Below are positions 1 to 16,552 of a DNA stretch of 20,146 bases, piece by piece. The notes beneath the pieces are model-generated. The model worked only from the letters and a program-made list of their open reading frames with translations, was not told where the DNA came from and searched no databases. The translations under genes and the position numbers were made by a program. The stretch spans positions 1 through 20,146 of the IMG/VR virus record IMGVR_UViG_3300020578_002891; one strand, written 5' to 3'. The DNA is from a virus. Positions within the stretch are counted from its first letter, which is position 1; the number at the start of each line of letters is the position of its first letter.

Positions 1-1
1 G

Positions 2-1876
2 GTCATACAGGCCAATTTAGGTGCCTATCAAACTTATGCAAATGCAAATGTAGTATCCATACAAGCCAATTTGGGTGCATATCAGACTTATGCCAATGCC
101 AATGCTGCTGCACAAACAAACGAAATCAATAATTTATTTTCTAATGCTGGAGTGCAAGCCACAAGTATAAATCTTGTAAATGCAAATGTAACTGCTGCCA
201 ATGGTGCAATTACTGCACTGACTGCCAATGCTGCTACACAGGCTGGTCTAATTACTTCTGTTAATGCCAATGTAACTGCGGCCAATACGGCCATCGCTAG
301 TTTACAGAGCAACGCCGCCGTACAACAAGGTGTGTTAGATGTATTGTCGGGAAATGCCGTAACACAAACTTTAGAATTACAACAGTTAACAAGCAACGCC
401 GCAGTGCAAGCTGCTAACTTAACCGTTCTACTTGCAAATGCAGTCAGTCAAGAATCTAGTTTAACAGTTTTGGTTAGTAACGCTGCTGCTCAAAGCACCG
501 CAATTGACAGCATCAATGCAAACATAGGTGCTTTTCAAACTTTTGCAAATGCCAATGCAGCAGCGCAGGCTACCTCAATCACAACTTTATTGAGTAACGC
601 CGCTGTCCAGGCACAGTTTTTAGACAGTTTGACCACCAATGCTGCCGCACAAGGAGCATCTATTATCAATATAGATGCAAATTTAGGAACGGCGTCAACA
701 AACATAACTGCCTTGCAGGCCAACGCAGGCACACAAGGTGCTGCAATTGACAGTATAAATGCCAATATAGGTGCTTATCAAACTTTTGCAAATGCCAATG
801 CCGCAGTACAAGCTACTTCGTTAACTACTTTAATTGCAAATGCTGCTACGCAAGCACAATCATTAGATAGTCTCACAGCAAATGCAGCCACACAGGCCAC
901 AAGTATCAATTTGATCAATGCAAACATTGGTTTATATCAAACTTTTGCAAATGCCAATGTAGTTGCTATACAGGCAAATCTTGGTGCCTTCCAGACTTTC
1001 AGTAATGCCAATGCAGCATCACAAGCAACATCAATTAACACAATCAATGCATATCAAACTTTTGCAAATGCCAACGTAGTTGCTATACAGGCAAATCTTG
1101 GTGCCTATCAGTCATATGCAAACACTCAAGCTAGTCAAATGTACTTGCCTTCTGTCTCACGTTTAAGTGTGACAAACAGCGGTGCCTCGGGTTATCTGTT
1201 TGACCAATATTCTGGCAGTAATCCAACCATTTATGTAACCGGCGGTGAAACAATATCATTTGCTTTAAGTGTCAGTGGTCACCCGTTTATGATTCGTGTA
1301 TCATCTGGTGGTTCAAATTACGACACAGGTCTGACTCATGTTGCAACAGATGGAACTGTTAGCACAGATTCTAGTGCCCAAGGAAAAGTCAGTGGAACAC
1401 TATATTGGAAAGTTCCTTTTGATTTAGTTGGTTCCACCTACGTGTATCAATGTTCCGTACACGGCGGTATGGTTGGAAGCATCGTAATTTTACCACCCGC
1501 TACTTTTGTTTCTGCTAATCTTAGTGCCTATCAAACATATGCCAATGCCAATGCTGCCAGCCTTCAAAATGATATCAATAACATAGTATCTCAAGCAAAT
1601 GCAAATACCGCTGCCTATTTGACCACTTACACTGGCAATGTGCAGGCAGGTAATCTTATGGTCACAGGAAATATAAGAGCTGTCAGCAATGTTTTTGCAA
1701 AAACAACTATTACATCTCCTGCGGCATTTGATAGCCTCACAGCAGTGTCCGGAGCCAGGGCCTTTGTGTCAGATGGCAACATTACGGCCGCGGGCAACTT
1801 TGGTGCTACAATCAGTGGCGGTGGCTCAAATGTTGCCCCTGTATGGTCCGATGGGGTTTATTGGTATATAGGATAA
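2..1876 (+). CDS. Tail fibre-like structural protein with embedded cupredoxin-like domain (5' end missing)
   Basis: The reading frame is open to the left edge, so the gene starts outside the window; a TTG at 71 falls inside the repeats and is not a convincing start. About 380 visible residues form degenerate repeats rich in Asn, Ala and Gln. In several places the period is 14 residues (pattern N-A-x-x-Q-x-x-x-L-x-x-L-x-x), i.e. two heptads with A/Q/L/L at core positions, which suggests a long trimeric coiled-coil shaft. Nucleotides about 1139-1494 encode a different, beta-rich domain with GHPF followed by YQCSVHGGM, giving His (1280), Cys (1451), His (1460) and Met (1469). That is a type-1 copper ligand set with amicyanin-like C-x2-H-x2-M spacing. 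Repeats resume afterwards. The end, ...PVWSDGVYWYIG, resembles the tips of marine phage fibre proteins. Fibre function is inferred; copper binding is untested. Confidence 0.8.
   Translation, partial: VIQANLGAYQTYANANVVSIQANLGAYQTYANANAAAQTNEINNLFSNAGVQATSINLVNANVTAANGAITALTANAATQAGLITSVNANVTAANTAIASLQSNAAVQQGVLDVLSGNAVTQTLELQQLTSNAAVQAANLTVLLANAVSQESSLTVLVSNAAAQSTAIDSINANIGAFQTFANANAAAQATSITTLLSNAAVQAQFLDSLTTNAAAQGASIINIDANLGTASTNITALQANAGTQGAAIDSINANIGAYQTFANANAAVQATSLTTLIANAATQAQSLDSLTANAATQATSINLINANIGLYQTFANANVVAIQANLGAFQTFSNANAASQATSINTINAYQTFANANVVAIQANLGAYQSYANTQASQMYLPSVSRLSVTNSGASGYLFDQYSGSNPTIYVTGGETISFALSVSGHPFMIRVSSGGSNYDTGLTHVATDGTVSTDSSAQGKVSGTLYWKVPFDLVGSTYVYQCSVHGGMVGSIVILPPATFVSANLSAYQTYANANAASLQNDINNIVSQANANTAAYLTTYTGNVQAGNLMVTGNIRAVSNVFAKTTITSPAAFDSLTAVSGARAFVSDGNITAAGNFGATISGGGSNVAPVWSDGVYWYIG
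934..1106 (+). repeat. Near-identical 56-bp direct repeat within the fibre gene
   Basis: Positions 934-989 and 1051-1106 match at all but one base (T at 958, C at 1075). They are offset by 117 bp, exactly 39 codons, so recombination between them would delete or add an in-frame shaft segment. The rest of the shaft repeat is diverged at DNA level, so this pair looks like the most recent expansion. Confidence 0.85.
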
Positions 1877-1909
1877 CTTGTGTGATAAGCGTAAATTAAT
1901 AAGTATTAC

Positions 1910-2611
1910 ATGATCATACTATACACTTTTTTAGTCACACACATCACCATAGACTGTGTGACGCTATACCTACATCGCAGTCAGGCACATAGAGCAGTGG
2001 AATTTCATCCCATGGTCAGTCACGCAATGAGATTTTGGTTATGGTTAACTACAGGAATGGTCACTCGACAGTGGGTGGCGGTTCATAGAAAACATCATAG
2101 ATTTTGCGAAGAAGTGGGCGACCCACATAGTCCAGTACACTATGGTATATGGCGTGTATTACTTAAAGGAGCATTGTTGTATCATGAGGCAAGCAAAGAT
2201 AAAGACATGGTTAATACATACGGTGTTGGCACTCCTAATGATTGGATTGAGCGTAATGTATACACGGCTCACTCTAGACTTGGCATTACTATTCTCCTTG
2301 TGTTCAACATCTTACTATTCGGTTGGGTGGGTGCCATAATATGGACGGTGCAAATGTTATGGATACCTTTCTGGGCGGCGGGAGTAATCAACGGCGTAGG
2401 ACACTGGTGGGGCTATAGAAACGGTGACACCCGAGACCAAAGTAGAAATATAGTTCCACTTGGCATTCTAATTGGTGGTGAAGAATTACACAACAATCAC
2501 CATTTAGATCCAGCCAGTCCTCGTTTAAGCCGTCGGTGGTTTGAGTTTGACATTGGTTGGATGTATATCCAAATATTTAAATCATTAAGATTGGCCACTG
2601 TTAAAAATTAA
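1910..2611 (+). CDS. Fatty acid (acyl-CoA delta-9 type) desaturase
   Basis: Membrane di-iron desaturase family, which introduces a double bond into acyl chains of membrane lipids. The full histidine set is visible: H22-x4-H27, H59-R-K-H62-H63, and H194-N-N-H197-H198, with the additional family histidine in GVGHWWGYRN (H165). Hydrophobic segments at about 2-20 and 124-160 would anchor it in the inner membrane. At 233 residues it is shorter than cellular relatives and has little sequence before the first histidine box, but the catalytic core looks intact. The ATG at 1910 lies 33 bp after the fibre gene and has no clear Shine-Dalgarno sequence. As a phage gene it is best read as an auxiliary metabolic gene altering host membrane fluidity during infection; that role is inferred. 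Confidence 0.9.
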   Translation: MIILYTFLVTHITIDCVTLYLHRSQAHRAVEFHPMVSHAMRFWLWLTTGMVTRQWVAVHRKHHRFCEEVGDPHSPVHYGIWRVLLKGALLYHEASKDKDMVNTYGVGTPNDWIERNVYTAHSRLGITILLVFNILLFGWVGAIIWTVQMLWIPFWAAGVINGVGHWWGYRNGDTRDQSRNIVPLGILIGGEELHNNHHLDPASPRLSRRWFEFDIGWMYIQIFKSLRLATVKN

Positions 2612-2625: not shown

Positions 2626-3654
2626 ATGTTAGACTCTATCCAGCAACAGGTTTTGCAACTACTTCCTGCCCGCAAAAAAACGGGTCAGAATGGCTGGACG
2701 AGTTTTAATGCTGTATGCTGCATACATAACGGAGAAACTGCTGATACTCGAGGTAGAGGTGGTATTAAAACAAACGCAGGACAAATATCATATCACTGTT
2801 TCAACTGCGGATATACAGCAAGTTTTATTCCTGGCCGTCATTTAAGTTTTAAGTTTCGCAAGTTATTGTCATGGTTAGGAGCAGATGATTTAACTGTTAG
2901 ACGCTTGGTAATTGAAGCAGTTAGACTAAAAGAACTTGTAGCTCCTGAGGAGCTTGAGCAGGTACCCGAAGAACAAATTCAATATGAGGCCAGACCATTG
3001 CCCGAAGGTTCAGTAAGTTTTGATCAATGGACCACTTACTTTGCCGTTCAAGGCAATGACTATCTGGTGCCTGATGGTGTAGTACGAGCAGTGCATTATG
3101 TAAATCATAGAAAAATTGATTTTCAAAAATACAAATTTTACTTAACAGATTACGAAGCATACAACTTACACCGTAGAATTATAATACCTTATTATTACAA
3201 AAATCAAATAGTAGGATACACAGCCAGAGCTATTGTGGACGGAGTAAAACCAAAGTATTGGAGCAGTCATCCAGCAGACTTTGTGTTTAATTTAGACATG
3301 CAAAAACCAGACTGGCGATTTGTAATTGTGTGCGAAGGTCCATTTGATGCTATGAGTATAGATGGTGTTAGCGTAAGTGGATCAGAAGTGTCAGACATCC
3401 AAGTTGAACAAATAGATAGATTGCAGCGCGAAGTCATAGTTGTTCCTGACTCAGATCGTGCAGGAAGAAAGTTAGTTGACCGAGCCATAGAAGCAGGATG
3501 GACTGTAAGTTTTCCTGTGTGGCAAGAGTCATGCAAAGATATAAACGATGCTGTAGTGAGATACGGTAAACTGTTTGTGCTTAAGAGTATACTGGCAGCA
3601 AGAGAAACCAGCAAGCTCAAGATTGAATTAAAGAAAAAAAAGTTATATGCTTGA
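2626..3654 (+). CDS. gp61: T4-like DNA primase (gp61 family)
   Basis: Synthesises RNA primers for lagging-strand replication and works with the gp41 helicase as the primosome. The N-terminus has a zinc-binding module (C31-x2-H34 and C58-x2-C61). The C-terminal half is a Toprim domain with CEGPFD (E237, D241) and the acidic pair D275-S-D277 followed by R278. Length (342 residues) fits T4 gp61. The last 8 bp overlap the next gene. From R286 to the end the protein is repeated, about 83% identical by eye, in the fragment at 4863-5039. Confidence 0.9.
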   Translation: MLDSIQQQVLQLLPARKKTGQNGWTSFNAVCCIHNGETADTRGRGGIKTNAGQISYHCFNCGYTASFIPGRHLSFKFRKLLSWLGADDLTVRRLVIEAVRLKELVAPEELEQVPEEQIQYEARPLPEGSVSFDQWTTYFAVQGNDYLVPDGVVRAVHYVNHRKIDFQKYKFYLTDYEAYNLHRRIIIPYYYKNQIVGYTARAIVDGVKPKYWSSHPADFVFNLDMQKPDWRFVIVCEGPFDAMSIDGVSVSGSEVSDIQVEQIDRLQREVIVVPDSDRAGRKLVDRAIEAGWTVSFPVWQESCKDINDAVVRYGKLFVLKSILAARETSKLKIELKKKKLYA

Positions 3655-4543
3655 CTTGATTAAAGGGTTTCATCTAGAAACAACCAACATCTGCACGTTG
3701 CAATGTCCTGGGTGTGCTAGAACTAGATTTATAAAAAACTTTCCAACGCAATGGAATAACAAGCAATTAAATTTAACAAATTTAAAAAATTTTTTAGATA
3801 TTGATATCAAAAGTAAAATTTTTAATCTCTGCGGAAATTATGGAGATACGATATACTACAATGATTTGTTTGATCTAGTAAAATGGATTAAGCAAAATAA
3901 TGGTATTGTCGCAATTGGTACCAATGGCAGTTATAAATCAAAAAAGTGGTGGAATGAATTGTGTTCATTATTGAGTTTTGATGATCATATTATATTTGCC
4001 ATTGATGGTACCCCAGAGAATTTTACCAATTATAGAATCAATGCAGATTGGCCTTCTATAAAGGATGGCATAGAAGTATCAACCAAGTTTACAAAAGTAA
4101 GTTGGAAATTTATTCCTTTTGAATACAATCAATTTGATATTGACAAAGCTAAAGCAATATCTAAAGATTTAGGAGTGCATTCATTTATAGTTGATCCATC
4201 AGATCGATGGAACGAGCATACTGTAAATTTTAAACCAGATACATTACTTGGGTATCGTACAGAACATGTGATAAATTGGTTACCAGAAAAGAAAACATCA
4301 ATAACTCCAAAATGCAAAACAACACATTTTGAACACTTTATTTCTGCTGAAGGATATTATATGCCGTGTTGTTTTGTAGCCGACTATAGATTTTATTACG
4401 CAAGTGAATTTTATAAAAATAAAAAAAGTTACGATATAAGTAATACAACATTGACTTCTGTTCTAGAAAATTTAGAAAGTTTTTATCAAGCTATCGAAGA
4501 AACAAAATTGAAATACTGCACTTTTAATTGCCCAAAAATATGA
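3647..4543 (+). CDS. Radical SAM protein with SPASM/twitch-like C-terminus
   Basis: Contains the radical SAM [4Fe-4S] motif C16-x3-C20-x2-C23 close to the N-terminus (NICTLQCPGC), which cleaves S-adenosylmethionine to start radical chemistry. C-terminal cysteines (PKCK, MPCC, and the final YCTFNCPKI) suggest an auxiliary Fe-S cluster as in SPASM/twitch proteins, many of which modify peptides or proteins. The substrate is unknown and no obvious precursor peptide lies next to it. The ATG sits inside the primase stop region (8-bp overlap) and the gene ends in an ATGA overlap with the truncated helicase copy, so it was translationally coupled on both sides. This is the cargo between primase and the first helicase copy. 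Confidence 0.85.
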   Translation: MLDLIKGFHLETTNICTLQCPGCARTRFIKNFPTQWNNKQLNLTNLKNFLDIDIKSKIFNLCGNYGDTIYYNDLFDLVKWIKQNNGIVAIGTNGSYKSKKWWNELCSLLSFDDHIIFAIDGTPENFTNYRINADWPSIKDGIEVSTKFTKVSWKFIPFEYNQFDIDKAKAISKDLGVHSFIVDPSDRWNEHTVNFKPDTLLGYRTEHVINWLPEKKTSITPKCKTTHFEHFISAEGYYMPCCFVADYRFYYASEFYKNKKSYDISNTTLTSVLENLESFYQAIEETKLKYCTFNCPKI

Positions 4544-4890
4544 AAGATTACACTCCTGAAGTACAAAGACTTTTCTTAGAGATGATGTTAGAAGACGCCG
4601 AAACATACGTGCGTGTTCAAAACATTTATAATGCAGACAACTTTGATCGCAGTATTAGAGAAGCTGCACGGTTTATAAAAAAACATAGCGATGACTATAA
4701 AACTCTACCTACTAGAGAACAGATACAAGCAGCCACCGGCGTAGAACTAAGAACAGTTCCAGATCTCAGAGAAGGTCATTATGATTGGTTCTTAACGGAA
4801 TTTGAAGGTTTCAGTCGCAAACAAGAACTAGAACGTGCTATTTTAAAAGCCGCGGATATGATCGAGCCATTGAAGCAGGATGGACTGTGA
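4540..4890 (+). pseudogene. Truncated copy of the gp41 helicase (N-terminal part only)
   Basis: From the ATG at 4540 (ATGA overlap with the radical SAM gene) about 108 residues align with residues 6-113 of the full helicase at 6314-7756, about 86% identical by eye. Similarity stops at DMIE (about 4865), where the sequence switches to a primase copy in another frame. Eight unrelated residues follow before the stop at 4888-4890. The RecA-like ATPase domain is absent, so it cannot be a helicase. Differences from the full copy are mostly third-position or conservative, showing that both copies diverged while functional. The surviving 116-residue ORF may still be translated; whether it has a role is unknown. 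Confidence 0.85.
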
Positions 4891-5039
4891 GTTTTCCTAT
4901 ATGGCAAGAAACCTGCAAAGACATAAATGAAGCTGTCATACGATACGGTAAACTGTTTGTTATAAAAAGCATTTTACAGGCCAAAGAAACTACTAGATTG
5001 AAAATAGAATTGAAAAAGAAAAAGTATGCAATGGTTTAA
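4863..5039 (+). pseudogene. Truncated copy of the gp61 primase C-terminus
   Basis: Reading from CGA at 4863 gives RAIEAGWTVSFPIWQETC and on to the stop at 5037-5039. It matches primase residues 286-339 at about 45 of 54 positions, all changes conservative. The frame is intact but has no start of its own and is out of frame with the helicase fragment it is joined to. At the junction both parents share only CGA (4863-4865). It lacks the zinc and Toprim motifs, so it cannot be active. The next ORF starts inside its 3' end, as happens at the complete primase. Confidence 0.85.
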
Positions 5040-5127
5040 AAAAATTCTACGTGAATTTTTGATTTGGTACAGATTTAGACGCGAACTTAAAAGTATGCGC
5101 GACGACGAACCGTACATATACAAATGA
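5026..5127 (+). CDS. Small basic hypothetical protein, 33 residues
   Basis: The ATG at 5026 lies within the end of the primase fragment and the stop (5125-5127) overlaps the methyltransferase ATG as ATGA. The product starts MQWFKKILREFLIWYRF and ends EPYIYK; the first 17 residues could form an amphipathic, membrane-touching helix and the whole is rich in Lys/Arg. Tight packing between two other frames supports real coding. Function unknown. Confidence 0.5.
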   Translation: MQWFKKILREFLIWYRFRRELKSMRDDEPYIYK

Positions 5128-5804
5128 ATCCAATTCAAGAATTTTATAACACATATCCGTTTCCGGGCGAGTACTCTTGGAAACAATTGATGGATATAGC
5201 GTATCCACCTCGTAACAGATACCTTGCAGTGATAGACAAATATTTACAAGATGGACAAACTGTATTAGATGTTGGATGCGGTACTGGTTTAATTACCAAT
5301 TTGTTTGCTAGCAGATATCGCAGTAAATTTACAGGCATCGATTTTTCTCGCGGTCTAGATATAGCCAAGCAGTTTGCTCACGTAAATCACCTGCAGAATG
5401 TGAAGTACATAAAACAAGATTTTGATAATTTTTGTCCTAGTGATCAATTTGATGTGGTGATCGCACAAAGCTTTTTAACACATAGTCATAATCCTTTATC
5501 TGCATTGGCTAGATTACAAAAGCATACCAAACCTGGCGGCCTCTTGATTTTTAGTGTGTATAATCCAGCCGGTCAGTTTTTTAAAAAGGTCTGCAATTTG
5601 AATTACAACAATGATCGTTTGGCTTTAGATCAAAAAAGCAATCCATTGGACAATGTGTTGGGCGACAATTGTATAAGAACCAAATTTGTCACGTGGCGGC
5701 TGAAAGAAATAATGCCATCAGTAAAAAATCGTTTGGTAGCCTTATCGGCTCTGTTTAACAGTCGTAACGGTGGTTTAACAATTTATGTTTATGAAAATAA
5801 ATGA
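5124..5804 (+). CDS. Class I SAM-dependent methyltransferase
   Basis: The protein contains the class I methyltransferase motif I (VLDVGCGTG, residues about 49-57), an acidic end to strand 2 (FTGIDFS), a motif II-like FDVVIAQS, and KPGGLLIFSV after it. This is the Methyltransf_11/25-type core, about 226 residues. No target-recognition domain typical of DNA methyltransferases (such as DPPY) is visible, so a small molecule, lipid or protein substrate is more likely. It overlaps both neighbours and is part of the second cargo between the primase fragment and the full helicase. Confidence 0.8.
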   Translation: MNPIQEFYNTYPFPGEYSWKQLMDIAYPPRNRYLAVIDKYLQDGQTVLDVGCGTGLITNLFASRYRSKFTGIDFSRGLDIAKQFAHVNHLQNVKYIKQDFDNFCPSDQFDVVIAQSFLTHSHNPLSALARLQKHTKPGGLLIFSVYNPAGQFFKKVCNLNYNNDRLALDQKSNPLDNVLGDNCIRTKFVTWRLKEIMPSVKNRLVALSALFNSRNGGLTIYVYENK

Positions 5805-6330
5805 AATAGAGCAAGATATTTGGCAGTGGATCGAGCAATATGTAGAAACTGAGCATAAATTTTACGATTATAAATTTCCGCCTTGCCCCTATGCCAAATC
5901 TGCCAGACTCAGAGGACTTGTTGATGTGGTGGCACATGAATCTGGAAACATAAAAAAGTTTATCAGCGAGCAAGTCAACGATCTGATTGGTGGAAAAAAA
6001 TTCAATGTGCGGGTGCTGGTATTTGCACCAAGATACAAGTATCTGTATGGATTTAAAAAATTTATAAACAAAGTTAATTTGGAAATTGTTCCGCTAGATT
6101 TTTATGCACAATACGGTACAGCATTGCGTACCGCTAGTCGTTATACGGGATTATTAAACAAAGGACCCTACTCAATTGTGATTGTAAATAAACTATCGGA
6201 TGTTCTTGCTGGGCATCAAGCTTTACTTAATACAGATTATTACAAACCATGGGCCAAGCATCATTATGATGCCGTGGTAGTTCGTAGACAACAAATGTAC
6301 GAAAAATATAAACATGAACACAACGACTAA
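5791..6330 (+). CDS. Hypothetical protein, possibly DUF1415-like
   Basis: I prefer the ATG at 5791 (MKINEIEQ) over one two codons upstream at 5785; both overlap the methyltransferase end. The protein is about 179 residues. An early W-x-x-Q/E-Y-V region is followed by PPCPYAK, then VRVLVFAPRY, and later KGPYSIVIVN. The order (aromatic helix, C-P-[FY]-A, a beta strand ending in P, a late P-Y-x-x-x-x segment) and length recall DUF1415 proteins, but this is by eye and tentative. No catalytic motif is recognised. The 3' end overlaps the helicase start by 17 bp, so the two are probably co-translated. Confidence 0.6.
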   Translation: MKINEIEQDIWQWIEQYVETEHKFYDYKFPPCPYAKSARLRGLVDVVAHESGNIKKFISEQVNDLIGGKKFNVRVLVFAPRYKYLYGFKKFINKVNLEIVPLDFYAQYGTALRTASRYTGLLNKGPYSIVIVNKLSDVLAGHQALLNTDYYKPWAKHHYDAVVVRRQQMYEKYKHEHND

Positions 6331-7756
6331 AGATTATAACGTAAACATTCAAAAGTTATTTTTGGAAATGATGCTTGAAGACGCAGAAACATATGTGCGT
6401 GTTCAAAACATTTACAACGCAGATAACTTTGATAGAAGTTTACGTGAGGTTGCCCGTTTTATAAAAAAGCACAGTGATGATCATAAAACTTTGCCCACAA
6501 GAGAGCAGATACAGGCTACCACTGGCGTTGAACTACGATCAGTTCCTGATCTGCAAGAAGGACATTATGAATGGTTTCTTGCAGAGTTTGAAAGTTTTAG
6601 TCGCAAGCAAGAACTAGAGCGAGCGATTCTTCAAGCCGCAGACATGATCGAAAAAGGCGACTTTGATCCTGTGGAAAAATTAATCAAGGATGCAGTACAA
6701 ATCAGTTTAACCAAGGATATGGGCACAGACTACTTTAGTGATCCGGCAGCTCGTATCAACCGGTATTTTAATAGCGGTGGGCAAGTGAGTACAGGCTGGC
6801 CCAGTGTTGACAAACTGCTGTACGGCGGTTTTAGCAGAGGCGAACTAAACATTTTTGCCGGCGGTTCGGGATCGGGTAAGAGTTTAGTCATGATGAACAT
6901 TGCACTCAATTGGTTGCAAGCAGGCCTTAACGGTGTATACATAACACTAGAACTTAGTGAAGAACTGACCAGCTTGCGTACTGATGCAATGTTGGCAAAT
7001 ATGAGTACCAAAGACATACGTCGGGACATTGATACCACTACACTCAAAGTAAAAATGGTAGGAAAGAAATCCGGAACTTATCAAGTAAAGGGCTTGCCTG
7101 CACAGAGCAATATTAACGATATCCGTGCGTACTTGAAAGAGTATCAAATTCAAACAGGGCGTCAAGTAGATTTCATTATGATTGATTACTTGGACTTACT
7201 CATGCCTGTCAGTGCCAAGGTTAGTCCCAATGATCTGTTTGTCAAAGACAAGTATGTGAGTGAAGAACTACGTAACTTGGCCAAAGAACTAGGTATCCTG
7301 ATGGTAACTGCAAGTCAGTTAAATCGTAGTGCAGTAGAAGAAGTGGAGTTTGACCATAGTCATATCTCAGGAGGTATCAGTAAAATTAACACAGCAGACA
7401 ATGTGTTTGGTATTTTTACCAGCAGAGCCATGCGTGAGCGCGGCCGTTATCAGATTCAGTGTATGAAAAGTCGTAGCAGCACAGGTGTGGGCATGAAAGT
7501 GGACTTGGAATACAATATCGAAACCATGCGTATCACTGATCCTGGTCCGGATGCACAAAGTGAAAATGGAGGAACAGGATTTCGTACTAGCAATCAAATC
7601 ATGGATCAAATCAAAACATCGACTAGCACATCCAGTCCGCCCATGACTACAGCTCGACCCAAACCAGGATTCAATATTGAAAACAAAGTCCAGGCAAATG
7701 TTGACAGTTCACGACTTAAAAGTATGCTAGCAAGCCTTAAAACAAAAAGCGAATAA
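6314..7756 (+). CDS. gp41: Replicative DNA helicase, T4 gp41 / DnaB family
   Basis: Hexameric 5'-3' helicase that unwinds the replication fork and recruits the primase. The N-terminal helical domain (about 1-135) is followed by a RecA-like domain with Walker A GGSGSGKS (183-190), Walker B IMIDYLDLL (about 288-296), and TASQLNR (332-338), all typical of DnaB/gp41. The C-terminal tail (after about 405) is Ser/Thr/Pro rich. Length (480) matches T4 gp41. The first 113 residues are duplicated at 4540-4865. This is the only complete helicase copy in the window. Confidence 0.95.
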   Translation: MNTTTKDYNVNIQKLFLEMMLEDAETYVRVQNIYNADNFDRSLREVARFIKKHSDDHKTLPTREQIQATTGVELRSVPDLQEGHYEWFLAEFESFSRKQELERAILQAADMIEKGDFDPVEKLIKDAVQISLTKDMGTDYFSDPAARINRYFNSGGQVSTGWPSVDKLLYGGFSRGELNIFAGGSGSGKSLVMMNIALNWLQAGLNGVYITLELSEELTSLRTDAMLANMSTKDIRRDIDTTTLKVKMVGKKSGTYQVKGLPAQSNINDIRAYLKEYQIQTGRQVDFIMIDYLDLLMPVSAKVSPNDLFVKDKYVSEELRNLAKELGILMVTASQLNRSAVEEVEFDHSHISGGISKINTADNVFGIFTSRAMRERGRYQIQCMKSRSSTGVGMKVDLEYNIETMRITDPGPDAQSENGGTGFRTSNQIMDQIKTSTSTSSPPMTTARPKPGFNIENKVQANVDSSRLKSMLASLKTKSE

Positions 7757-7761
7757 ATATC
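7752..7761 (+). promoter_or_regulatory. T4-type late promoter
   Basis: AATAAATATC overlaps the helicase stop codon. It matches the T4/cyanomyovirus late element (NATAAATA), read by sigma gp55 with gp33/gp45. It would start transcription about 7767 for the operon running to 10477. The same core recurs at 10493, 11045 and 11506. Confidence 0.65.
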
Positions 7762-7778
7762 TAATAACGGAGTAGATT

Positions 7779-8027
7779 TTGCAAAAGCGTACTCGCAGCA
7801 TTCTTGATGAACTGGCACACATGCCTGTCAATAAAGACAGAGAAAATCTTGTGGAAAGTCGTGCGAGTCATGTTATACAAGGTGCTATTAATTTAATTAA
7901 CTACATCAAAGAGAACTATGATTCCGAGCAAGCGGATGAGCTAGAACGTAGATTATTGAATAGTATTAGAGCACAAGATCCTGCAAAATTCGCTCGAGGT
8001 GTAAGGAGATTCCGTAATGAAAATTAA
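7779..8027 (+). CDS. Conserved-type hypothetical protein, TTG start
   Basis: A TTG start is chosen because GGAG (7769-7772) lies 6 bases upstream and an in-frame stop at 7773-7775 rules out anything longer; the first in-frame ATG (7821) would remove the RTRSILDEL segment. The 82-residue protein is charged and helical (NLINYIKENYDSEQADELERR). It resembles, from memory, a small protein common in T4-like cyanophages starting QKRTRSILEEL. First gene after a late promoter; the next gene overlaps it. Function unknown. Confidence 0.7.
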   Translation: MQKRTRSILDELAHMPVNKDRENLVESRASHVIQGAINLINYIKENYDSEQADELERRLLNSIRAQDPAKFARGVRRFRNEN

Positions 8028-14143: not shown

Positions 14144-14521
14144 ATGTCTTATTCGGCACAGGTAGTGGATCACTACGAAAATCCACGTAATGTTGGAAAA
14201 CTGGATAAAAATGATCCTCAAGTAGGTACAGGACTAGTAGGAGCTCCAGCCTGCGGCGATGTACTTCAGCTTCAAATAAAAGTAGAGCAAGGAATGATAA
14301 CAGATGCGAAGTTTAAAACTTATGGCTGCGGTTCAGCGATTGCGAGTTCGTCGTTGATATCTGAGTGGGTCAAAGGCAAAACTCTCGAAGAAGCTGAGCA
14401 AATTAAGAATACACAAATTGCCGAAGAACTGGCATTACCGCCGGTTAAAATACATTGTTCAATACTAGCCGAAGATGCAATAAAAGCAGCATTAAACGAT
14501 TATAAAAATAAAAATGCTTAA
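14144..14521 (+). CDS. iscU: IscU-type Fe-S cluster assembly scaffold
   Basis: Scaffold on which [2Fe-2S]/[4Fe-4S] clusters are built before delivery to apo-proteins. The conserved ligands are present: C37 and D39 in PACGD, C62 in YGCGSAIASSS, H104 and C105 in IHCS, at nearly the E. coli positions. LPPVK (98-102), the motif bound by the HscA chaperone, is intact. Length 125 against about 128 in E. coli, so it is a full-length working form. No cysteine desulfurase, HscA/B or ferredoxin is in the window, so it would rely on host partners. It overlaps the radical SAM gene by 8 bp. Confidence 0.95.
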   Translation: MSYSAQVVDHYENPRNVGKLDKNDPQVGTGLVGAPACGDVLQLQIKVEQGMITDAKFKTYGCGSAIASSSLISEWVKGKTLEEAEQIKNTQIAEELALPPVKIHCSILAEDAIKAALNDYKNKNA

Positions 14522-16226
14522 TGTATTATTTTATCACGCCAATCTGTTAGATGCTACTAAAACAAAAAGATTTTATTTAGGAACTTCATCCTTTTTTTTG
14601 AAAACCTATTTTGATGTTCACTTTCCAGAGCTAGCGAACAAGGTAAATTGGATTACACCTATACAGGCTTACATCAATGATGATGAGCTGATTTCTATAT
14701 GTAATAGAGAAAAAATAGATTTACTATGTACAAGTCATTATATATGGAATAATGAATTTTTACTAATGCCGCAATTATCAAGAATCAAAGATAAAATTTG
14801 TGCCAAGGTAATTAGTGGTGGACCTAGTATTTCTGTTCATGTTGATGACAATTTTTTTCAAAAACATCCTTATATTGATTATGCTATATACGGACCCGGA
14901 GAAAAAGCATTTGCAGATTTACTTGTAAGCCAACTTGGTAACAAAAAAATTATTTCCTTTAATACATCAAATATAGCTTTTTACGACAAAGAAAAAAATA
15001 AAACAGTAATTTCAAAATTTGAATATGTTCCGTTAACTTCTGTTAGTCCTTACTTGCATAATAAAGAAGTGTTTAGTCACTCAGTGAAAGAGTTACAAAA
15101 TAAAGGATACGATGTTGCTGTTCCGTTTGACCTCACTAGAGGCTGTCCGTACTCATGTACATTCTGCGATTGGAATAGCGGACTTAGTAATAAAGTATCT
15201 AGGCGTAAAAACAGTTTCCATGATGATATTGATTTATTTCACGAATTAAACATTAAAACAATTTATCTGTCAGACGCCAATATAGGACAATTCCCCGAAG
15301 ACATTGATATGATAGCCTACATGGCCAAGAAAAACATTGAAGAAAATGCCGGATTTCAAGTTGAAGGAAATCTAAGTAAGCTACGCAAAGAAAATAACTT
15401 AAAAATAATGCATTTAATGGCACAAGGAAAGCTGGTCAATAAATACGGAATGGTTTTAGCTGTTCAAGATATCAATGAGAGTATTTTAAATAATATTGAT
15501 CGACCAGATGTAACTTGGGAAGTGCATAAACAAATGATCCACGAAATGCGCTTGCATTACCCTGAATATATAATGAAATTACAGTTGATACAAGGATTAC
15601 CGGGTCAAACTGTTCTTGGTTGGAGAGAAACTCTAAAAGAAGTTACCAAAGAAAGAGTTTATGCATACATTTTTATCAATGAACTTTTACCTACCAGTCC
15701 GGCTGCACTAGACAAAAATTATCAACAAAAATTTCAATTCACTTATTCCACTAGCGAAAGATTTACCACACGCAAAGAAGGATACAGTTTTTATAGAGGA
15801 AAATTTCCTGCATCATGTGTGAGTTTTACTCAACGAGATTTTGTCAAGATGACTGTACTTTCTCATTTGTATTTGTGTATAATGTCTTTGAGAACGCTGT
15901 TTGACAATTACCAAGGATTTGATACAGAAAAATTAATCGATATGCTATTAGCCAGTGAAAACTGTAAAATGATAGAAGAAAATTTATACAACAATTGGAC
16001 AATGTTAGATAAATTTTATTATACAATTAATTTCAGTGGGGAATCAAAAATGATACCCGGGGATAGTATGTCGGAACACATACAAGATTGGTTAGATACT
16101 AAAGAATTTCAAAAAATTTTACTTAGTAATATAACTAATGATTCCTTAAAAAAAGAAGTATTTATGTGTATAAGACAATCACAACTGTCTGAAAAAATTG
16201 TAACATTAGTGGATCAATATTATTGA
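14514..16226 (+). CDS. Large radical SAM protein with cobalamin-binding-like N-terminal domain
   Basis: 570 residues. C211-x3-C215-x2-C218 (TRGCPYSCTFCDW) is the radical SAM cluster motif. The first about 140 residues look like the Rossmann domain of B12-dependent radical SAM enzymes (ISGGPSIS, then YAIYGPGEKAFADLL), but the cobalamin-ligating D-x-H-x-x-G motif is not visible, so B12 may not be bound or may be bound base-off. After the barrel, about 200 residues are unfamiliar. Members modify tRNA, lipids or peptides; the substrate here is unknown. Being sandwiched by overlap between iscU and iscA strongly suggests that these supply its clusters. Confidence 0.85.
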   Translation: MLNVLFYHANLLDATKTKRFYLGTSSFFLKTYFDVHFPELANKVNWITPIQAYINDDELISICNREKIDLLCTSHYIWNNEFLLMPQLSRIKDKICAKVISGGPSISVHVDDNFFQKHPYIDYAIYGPGEKAFADLLVSQLGNKKIISFNTSNIAFYDKEKNKTVISKFEYVPLTSVSPYLHNKEVFSHSVKELQNKGYDVAVPFDLTRGCPYSCTFCDWNSGLSNKVSRRKNSFHDDIDLFHELNIKTIYLSDANIGQFPEDIDMIAYMAKKNIEENAGFQVEGNLSKLRKENNLKIMHLMAQGKLVNKYGMVLAVQDINESILNNIDRPDVTWEVHKQMIHEMRLHYPEYIMKLQLIQGLPGQTVLGWRETLKEVTKERVYAYIFINELLPTSPAALDKNYQQKFQFTYSTSERFTTRKEGYSFYRGKFPASCVSFTQRDFVKMTVLSHLYLCIMSLRTLFDNYQGFDTEKLIDMLLASENCKMIEENLYNNWTMLDKFYYTINFSGESKMIPGDSMSEHIQDWLDTKEFQKILLSNITNDSLKKEVFMCIRQSQLSEKIVTLVDQYY

Positions 16227-16552
16227 TGATAAATCTTACTGAATTAGCAGCTAAAAAAGTACAGCAACAGTTGTCCAAGCGAGGCCGAGGTAAAGGCATC
16301 ATGATAGGCGTTCGGACCACAGGATGCAGCGGACTTGCATATAAATTAGAGTATGTAGACACTCCTCCTATAACACGAGATTGGATAGTCTACGAAAGTA
16401 ACGGCATTAAAATTTATGTCAACGGCCGAGATTTGCCGTACATCGATGGTATGACCATGGACTGGAAACGTCAAGGACTCAATGAAGGATTTGATTTTAT
16501 CAATGAAAAAGAACGTGACCGTTGCGGTTGCGGAGAAAGTTTTCGAATCTAA
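16226..16552 (+). CDS. iscA: IscA/HesB A-type Fe-S carrier
   Basis: Carries and transfers Fe-S clusters to target enzymes, especially [4Fe-4S] proteins. The three ligands are present: C34 in TTGCSGLAYKL, and C100 and C102 in the C-terminal CGCGESF, at almost the same places as in E. coli IscA. I start at ATG 16226, whose A is the last base of the previous stop, rather than at a TTG one codon earlier. Length 108 is normal for the family. The next gene follows with no gap. Confidence 0.95.
   Translation: MINLTELAAKKVQQQLSKRGRGKGIMIGVRTTGCSGLAYKLEYVDTPPITRDWIVYESNGIKIYVNGRDLPYIDGMTMDWKRQGLNEGFDFINEKERDRCGCGESFRI

Follow-up and report, generated by a model that had tools for sequence, protein, structure and literature searches.

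Partial copies of primase and helicase genes separate two accessory cargoes in a phage replication locus, probably through off-register exchange between related phages

How a phage comes to carry two different sets of accessory genes between its primase and helicase genes, with pieces of these same two genes fused in the middle, is the question raised by the locus described here. The window that we analysed is the entire virus record IMGVR_UViG_3300020578_002891, 20,146 bp long, a genome fragment of an uncultured large phage. Judged by the helicase, its nearest isolated phages are the PA5oct-type jumbo Pseudomonas phages and Atu_ph07; the helicase is 49% identical to that of the PA5oct type over 98% of the protein, and in PA5oct the primase adjoins the helicase directly, with virion genes next. 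Both the helicase relatedness and the primase-helicase gene order fit a PA5oct-like jumbo phage. The names gp41 and gp61, used in the initial annotation, are appropriate by function, whereas its term 'T4-like' is loose, this phage being nearer to the PA5oct-type jumbo phages than to T4. Genome contigs scanned with the window helicase yielded a single fragment, in a MAG, and no host assignment.

The map of the locus is reported in Table 1. As the initial annotation had described, the locus contains an out-of-frame fusion of a 5' fragment of the helicase gene (HEL') with a 3' fragment of the primase gene (PRIM'), with an intact primase on the left and an intact helicase on the right. The cargo on the left of the fusion is a radical SAM protein with SPASM-like cysteines at its C-terminus; the CxxxCxxC motif and C223/C241/C242/C291/C295 are invariant in 14 homologues, and the nearest homologue, in locus L155, stands at 75%. 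The start codon of HEL' overlaps the stop codon of this gene (ATGA at 4540), as happens at a genuine junction between radical SAM and helicase genes. On the right of the fusion, the 33-aa ORF overlaps the methyltransferase through an ATGA at 5124, the methyltransferase overlaps the 181-aa ORF by 20 nt, and the latter overlaps the helicase by 17 nt. The methyltransferase, used as a query, found no further relative, and the predicted structure of the 181-aa protein (pLDDT 70, a middling confidence) had no PDB match at E<=0.001. The layout does not resemble that of a moron-type insertion, which brings its own promoter and terminator: the ORFs overlap each other and the flanks by 4–20 nt and leave no intergenic space. 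Neither does the cargo resemble a homing endonuclease or integrase-driven element, as no endonuclease, integrase or transposase was found in it by Pfam and PHROGs.

Table 1. Features of the primase-helicase locus in the window
Feature	Coordinates	Strand	Evidence and remarks
Intact primase (gp61/DnaG-TOPRIM type)	2626..3654	+	phrog_47 DNA primase E=2e-39; Toprim_2 above cut-off; putatively parent A side, at least its 3' end
Cargo A, radical SAM protein, 298 aa	3647..4543	+	phrog_21308 radical SAM E=1.2e-21
HEL', helicase 5' fragment	4540..4866	+	Residues 5-113 of the full copy
Joint	4859..4866	+	Putative TGATCGAG microhomology, from relatives' helicases and primases
PRIM', primase 3' fragment	4859..5039	+	Primase residues 285-340
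Cargo B1, 33-aa ORF	5026..5127	+	Kept in L013 (73%) and L159 (45%); invariant EPYIYK end
Cargo B2, class I SAM methyltransferase, 226 aa	5124..5804	+	Methyltransf_31 E=1.4e-19; L013 69%
Cargo B3, 181 aa, phrog_28122-like N-terminus	5785..6330	+	L013 68%, L159 60%
Intact replicative helicase (DnaB/gp41 type)	6314..7756	+	DnaB_C E=3.8e-20; putatively parent B
DOWN1, conserved downstream 82-aa gene	7779..8027	+	Marks the second cargo slot, empty in the window

That HEL' and PRIM' are copies of the flanking genes was evident from a direct-repeat search, which paired 4564-4863 with 6350-6649 (helicase, 300 nt, 79%) and 3477-3643 with 4859-5025 (primase, 167 nt, 76%). When the primase-helicase gap was compared by blastn to the window's own flanking genes, matches were obtained with E=3.7e-72 for the helicase and 1.3e-31 for the primase, while a control run at the same threshold on reversed sequences of all 214 inter-gene gaps of the family gave zero matches. 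The protein identities, estimated by eye at about 86% and 83%, were measured as 85–86% over ~110 aa for HEL'/HEL and 84% over 55 aa for PRIM'/PRIM. Silent differences between the copies have reached saturation (pS 0.79 for the helicase and 0.80 for the primase), and since this makes the dN/dS ratio of both copy pairs unreliable, we report the non-synonymous differences as such (pN 0.093 and 0.105, respectively). The amino-acid change shows no clear excess over the full genes of the relatives, HEL' being mid-range and PRIM' near the upper end but within the range, and neither fragment has an internal stop or frameshift ahead of the joint. Thus, as had been proposed, the copies diverged as working genes, with saturated silent sites and conserved amino acids; the fusion itself would be either young or made of fragments that remain in use.

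At the joint, the helicase frame runs from 4540 to 4863 and then reads EPLKQDGL up to a stop codon (4888-4890), and the primase frame can be followed between about 4860 and 5039. The stop codon of HEL' shares bases with a GTG at 4887 (GTGA, 4887-4890), an arrangement that may allow re-initiation into PRIM'. It had been noted that only CGA is shared at the joint: the window's own copies do share little more, but the relatives share 7–8 nt. In fact, at this point the helicases of relatives have ATGATCGAG and their primases TTGATCGAGCC, so that TGATCGAG (4859-4866, 7–8 nt) is the likely sequence common to both sides. The 29-mer spanning the joint was absent from all other viral contigs searched, and the joint is known from one contig alone, the main uncertainty of the present reading; a separate contig (L003), which matches the window at 99.98% identity, begins only at 5969, to the right of the joint.

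Where the duplicated pieces come from is suggested by their affinities. The HEL' protein is 94% identical to the helicases of L090/L015/L086/L083, against 86% to the window's own helicase (108 codons). In the helicase tree the full copy pairs with L104 (98/86) and HEL' groups with L088 and L083 (81/87), and a sisterhood of HEL and HEL' was weakly rejected by the AU test (p=0.042). In the primase tree, built on the last 56 codons, the full copy pairs with L088 (100/95) and PRIM' groups with L023 (98/85); here the sisterhood of the two copies was not rejected (p=0.28, on only 168 columns), a value that is not decisive alone. In both trees, then, the duplicates stand nearer to other genomes than to their own full copies. 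L088 is the nearest relative of both the full primase 3' end and HEL', which would be the two ends of a piece derived from one parent. By sliding identity, the ATPase domain of the window helicase falls in the L104/L097/L004/L007/L103 class (~80–85%), compared with ~60–66% between the window helicase and the kin of HEL' (L088/L015/L086) in the ATPase half. None of the contigs found was similar enough to be taken for an actual parent, the best DNA identities being 81–87%, and sliding identity gave no clean breakpoint for the left crossover, the primase being strongly mosaic with an L088-like 3' end.

These affinities, together with the trees, point to an off-register exchange between two parents rather than to a duplication within one genome. 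A tandem duplication of primase, cargo and helicase, followed by the replacement of one cargo and by divergence of the copies, would give an identical final gene order, and sister primase copies are compatible with the AU test. Nevertheless, silent sites are saturated although neither fragment decayed, HEL' is closer to the helicases of other phages than to its own full copy, and the two cargoes are unrelated, and we consider this origin highly improbable; in its simple form we rejected it as a first choice on the silent-site saturation and on the grouping of HEL' with other phages. We believe, instead, that the region probably arose when two related phages, infecting the same cell, exchanged DNA off register. 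The recombination put forward in the initial annotation is thus supported by the position of HEL' among the genes of other phages and by the agreement of the trees, with co-infection as its presumed setting.

The two parental arrangements required by such an exchange were searched among ~300 loci fetched from viral contigs, of which 216 were non-redundant and had both primase and helicase. As predicted, the order primase-radical SAM-helicase, with no other cargo, was found in 18 different loci, and L013 has the order primase-33aa ORF-methyltransferase-181aa ORF-helicase; in L159 the order is primase-33aa ORF-181aa ORF-B12 radical SAM-helicase. The primase-helicase gap is empty in 106/216 loci and holds 592–3742 nt of cargo in the other 110, with no gap of 100–500 nt in the whole set, and the second slot, which extends from the helicase to the following conserved gene, contains cargo in 104/156; the loci were sampled as best hits, and the counts should not be read as unbiased frequencies. 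The cargo families include several kinds of radical SAM proteins, methyltransferases, a weak match to Stf0 sulphotransferase and several without a Pfam match. On the helicase tree, cargo type requires at least 88 changes (shuffled mean 106, lowest 102) and cargo presence or absence 65 (shuffled mean 73, lowest 66), indicating that cargo turns over almost as fast as random labels would; the cargo differs even between loci with 99% identical helicases. The primase-helicase locus is an accessory-gene hotspot.

No other of the 216 loci has a scar of the size of that in the window, but smaller ones are present. In L041, L061 and L274 we observed 55–69 nt copies (93–96%) of the 3' end of their own helicase, with E-values from 3e-27 to 6e-19, lying between the cargo of the second slot and DOWN1, within ~100 nt of DOWN1 in L041 and L274 and further upstream in L061. 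In L033, L044 and L275, the cargo starts with codons that reproduce the start segment of the helicase over ~15–20 nt (e.g. TTGTTAAAAGAATAC), and in L044, which has two tandem cargoes, this segment opens each of them. Matches of 15–36 nt to own repeats in further loci (e.g. L004, L084, L139, L142 and L155) were weak and were set aside as possible coincidences, unlike the start-codon repeats, which were read in the sequences themselves. The partial duplication of core-gene ends beside cargo is therefore recurrent, and the window is by far its largest example among the loci examined.

A joint seen in one contig could also be an assembly or library chimera, in which two coexisting phages were artificially joined at 4859-4866. 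The joint was found in no second contig, and closely related phages are in play, making mis-joins possible: over its first 2022 nt the window is 100% identical to L104, and the sequences then diverge, to ~90% and below, a pattern that could reflect either a recent transfer or closely related phages complicating the assembly. However, the common k-mers that assemblers need greatly exceed 8 nt, and a join between homologous genes would be made in register, giving no duplication, whereas this joint is out of register and yet falls at matching loci, similarly oriented, in the two parents. In addition, genuine cargo-gene junctions end both sides, and the smaller scars of other contigs follow a like logic independently. 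On balance an artefact seems unlikely.

On these grounds, the off-register exchange could have occurred as follows. Parent A would have carried primase-radical SAM-helicase and parent B primase-33aa ORF-methyltransferase-unknown-helicase. A DNA end of A, broken in the helicase after codon ~113, may have joined the primase of B at codon ~285 through ~7–8 nt of microhomology, while the other side would be either a regular homologous crossover, within the primase common to both or in genes upstream, or just DNA derived from A. The outcome keeps both essential genes intact, the primase on the left and the helicase on the right, and, since every frame overlaps the next, ribosomes could pass the scar by re-initiation, sparing the helicase from polarity; translation could thus continue across the fusion, and the recombinant would be viable. 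Later, the HEL'/HEL and PRIM/PRIM' repeats could recombine and delete either cargo, returning a simple locus with the cargo of A or of B. It has been reported that lambda Red efficiently exchanges sequences 22% diverged (PMC2327257), which makes recombination between repeats of 76–79% identity plausible.

A different question is whether the fragments acquired a use afterwards, which would be compatible with the two-parent origin. HEL' (116 aa) and/or PRIM' (50 aa) might be kept as functional small proteins, for instance a free helicase N-terminal domain modulating helicase or primase. Both are open, both are placed for translational coupling by the ATGA and GTGA overlaps, and their amino-acid changes are not in excess of those of full genes; against this, a young scar would equally show no decay and such pieces are retained in no other locus among the 216. 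We judge this use very unlikely.

Among known processes, the nearest appears to be homology-facilitated illegitimate recombination (HFIR) (PMC3240628; refs 42–44 in PMC3784515). HFIR, like the window, has one end joined at a microhomology of few nt, foreign genes beside a homologous anchor and a partly duplicated flank; it is described for transformation and conjugation, whereas the window is part of a phage genome. A homologous crossover at the other end and dependence on a recombinase of the RecA/UvsX type would also be expected of an HFIR product. Here, a flank partly duplicated with gain of foreign genes is present, and a short microhomology joining sequences that are not otherwise related is recognisable through the genes of relatives, not of the actual parents. 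The effector/immunity arrays of the Vibrio cholerae T6SS (PMC5361080) grow by sequential displacement, in an HFIR-like manner, and share with the window a new module stacked upstream, a leftover 3' piece of the displaced gene and copies that resemble those of other strains more than one another; their authors used against duplication the same phylogenetic argument as ours (PMC5361080). Those arrays are, however, a bacterial competition locus, whereas the window holds phage cargo flanked by core replication genes, each intact once. For T4-like phages, it has already been proposed that recombination carried out by the phage itself brings in ORFs between conserved genes (PMC1524935), and their variable ORFs are similarly novel, in the same direction, between conserved genes and in some cases beside paralogous duplicates; of the two, only the window leaves matched fragments of both flanks and two complete cargoes. 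Finally, Streptococcus pneumoniae merodiploids (PMC3784515) result from unequal exchange with imported DNA, giving a partial duplication in which both alleles are carried, but their duplications of ~100–900 kb arise via long repeats, compared with ~0.5 kb repeats and microhomology in the window.

The gain and swap of accessory genes by lytic phages is usually inferred from finished products, and the window shows a rarely seen intermediate, visible in one locus family beside both simple arrangements, the cargo-free state and the series of smaller scars. We tentatively suggest, as a possibility still short of an even chance, that off-register exchange at the ends of core genes may be a main route of cargo stacking and swapping in this phage group; the partial primase and helicase duplicates (in the window, L041/L061/L274 and L033/L044/L275) would then be metastable intermediates, resolved to one cargo by homologous recombination, and cassettes would be exchanged at this locus with no integrase devoted to the task. 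The model is testable: misaligned exchange would stack cargo between essential genes with neither integrase nor transposase, and the repeats left over would permit later swaps.

The interval between the helicase gene and DOWN1, a conserved 82-aa gene lying downstream of it, is a second cargo slot, which was filled, by 666-3832 nt, in 104 of 156 related primase-helicase loci (best-hit samples rather than unbiased frequencies); in the window this slot (7757-7778) is empty. In L041, L061 and L274, the cargo in this second slot is separated from the conserved gene that follows by a stretch that contains a copy, 55-69 nt long, of the helicase 3'-end. In the primase-helicase gaps of L033, L044 and L275, the segment at the start of the helicase (TTGTTAAAAGAATAC-like) is repeated at the beginning of the cargo ORFs, as though every cargo had borrowed the start site of the helicase. 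L044 and L027 each carry two tandem cargoes of the same family.

Location of the features in the window and in related loci
Feature	Location	Match
Fatty acid desaturase gene	window 1910-2611	Pfam FA_desaturase
33-aa ORF + 181-aa protein + partner cargo set	window 5026-6330; L013 885-2186; L159 1193-3725	
B12-binding radical SAM gene + two small neighbours	window 14144-16552	KedN5-like, NCBIfam E=2e-26, below cut-off
Helicase 3'-end copy	L041 11191-11262	
Helicase 3'-end copy	L061 4706-4762	
Helicase 3'-end copy	L274, upstream of its DOWN1 gene	

The desaturase gene is immediately 5' of the primase, a position kept in many relatives. Within it, past position 2022, identity to L104 drops to ~90% and below, while window 1-2022 is 100% identical to L104 7376-9397 across 2022 nt; this pattern reflects either an exchange that happened very recently or a join made in assembly. 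The identical stretch includes a repetitive tail-fibre-like gene, whose product shows, by eye, a cupredoxin-like domain stretch (window ~1220-1560; HPFMIRV...YQCSVHGGM). Further along the window, the two small genes flanking the B12-binding radical SAM gene resemble, again by eye, the Fe-S assembly proteins IscU and ErpA.

In the window, L013 and L159, the 33-aa ORF, with its invariant end EPYIYK, accompanies the 181-aa protein of unknown function and either a methyltransferase or a B12 radical SAM protein, and together they possibly form a peptide-modification set.
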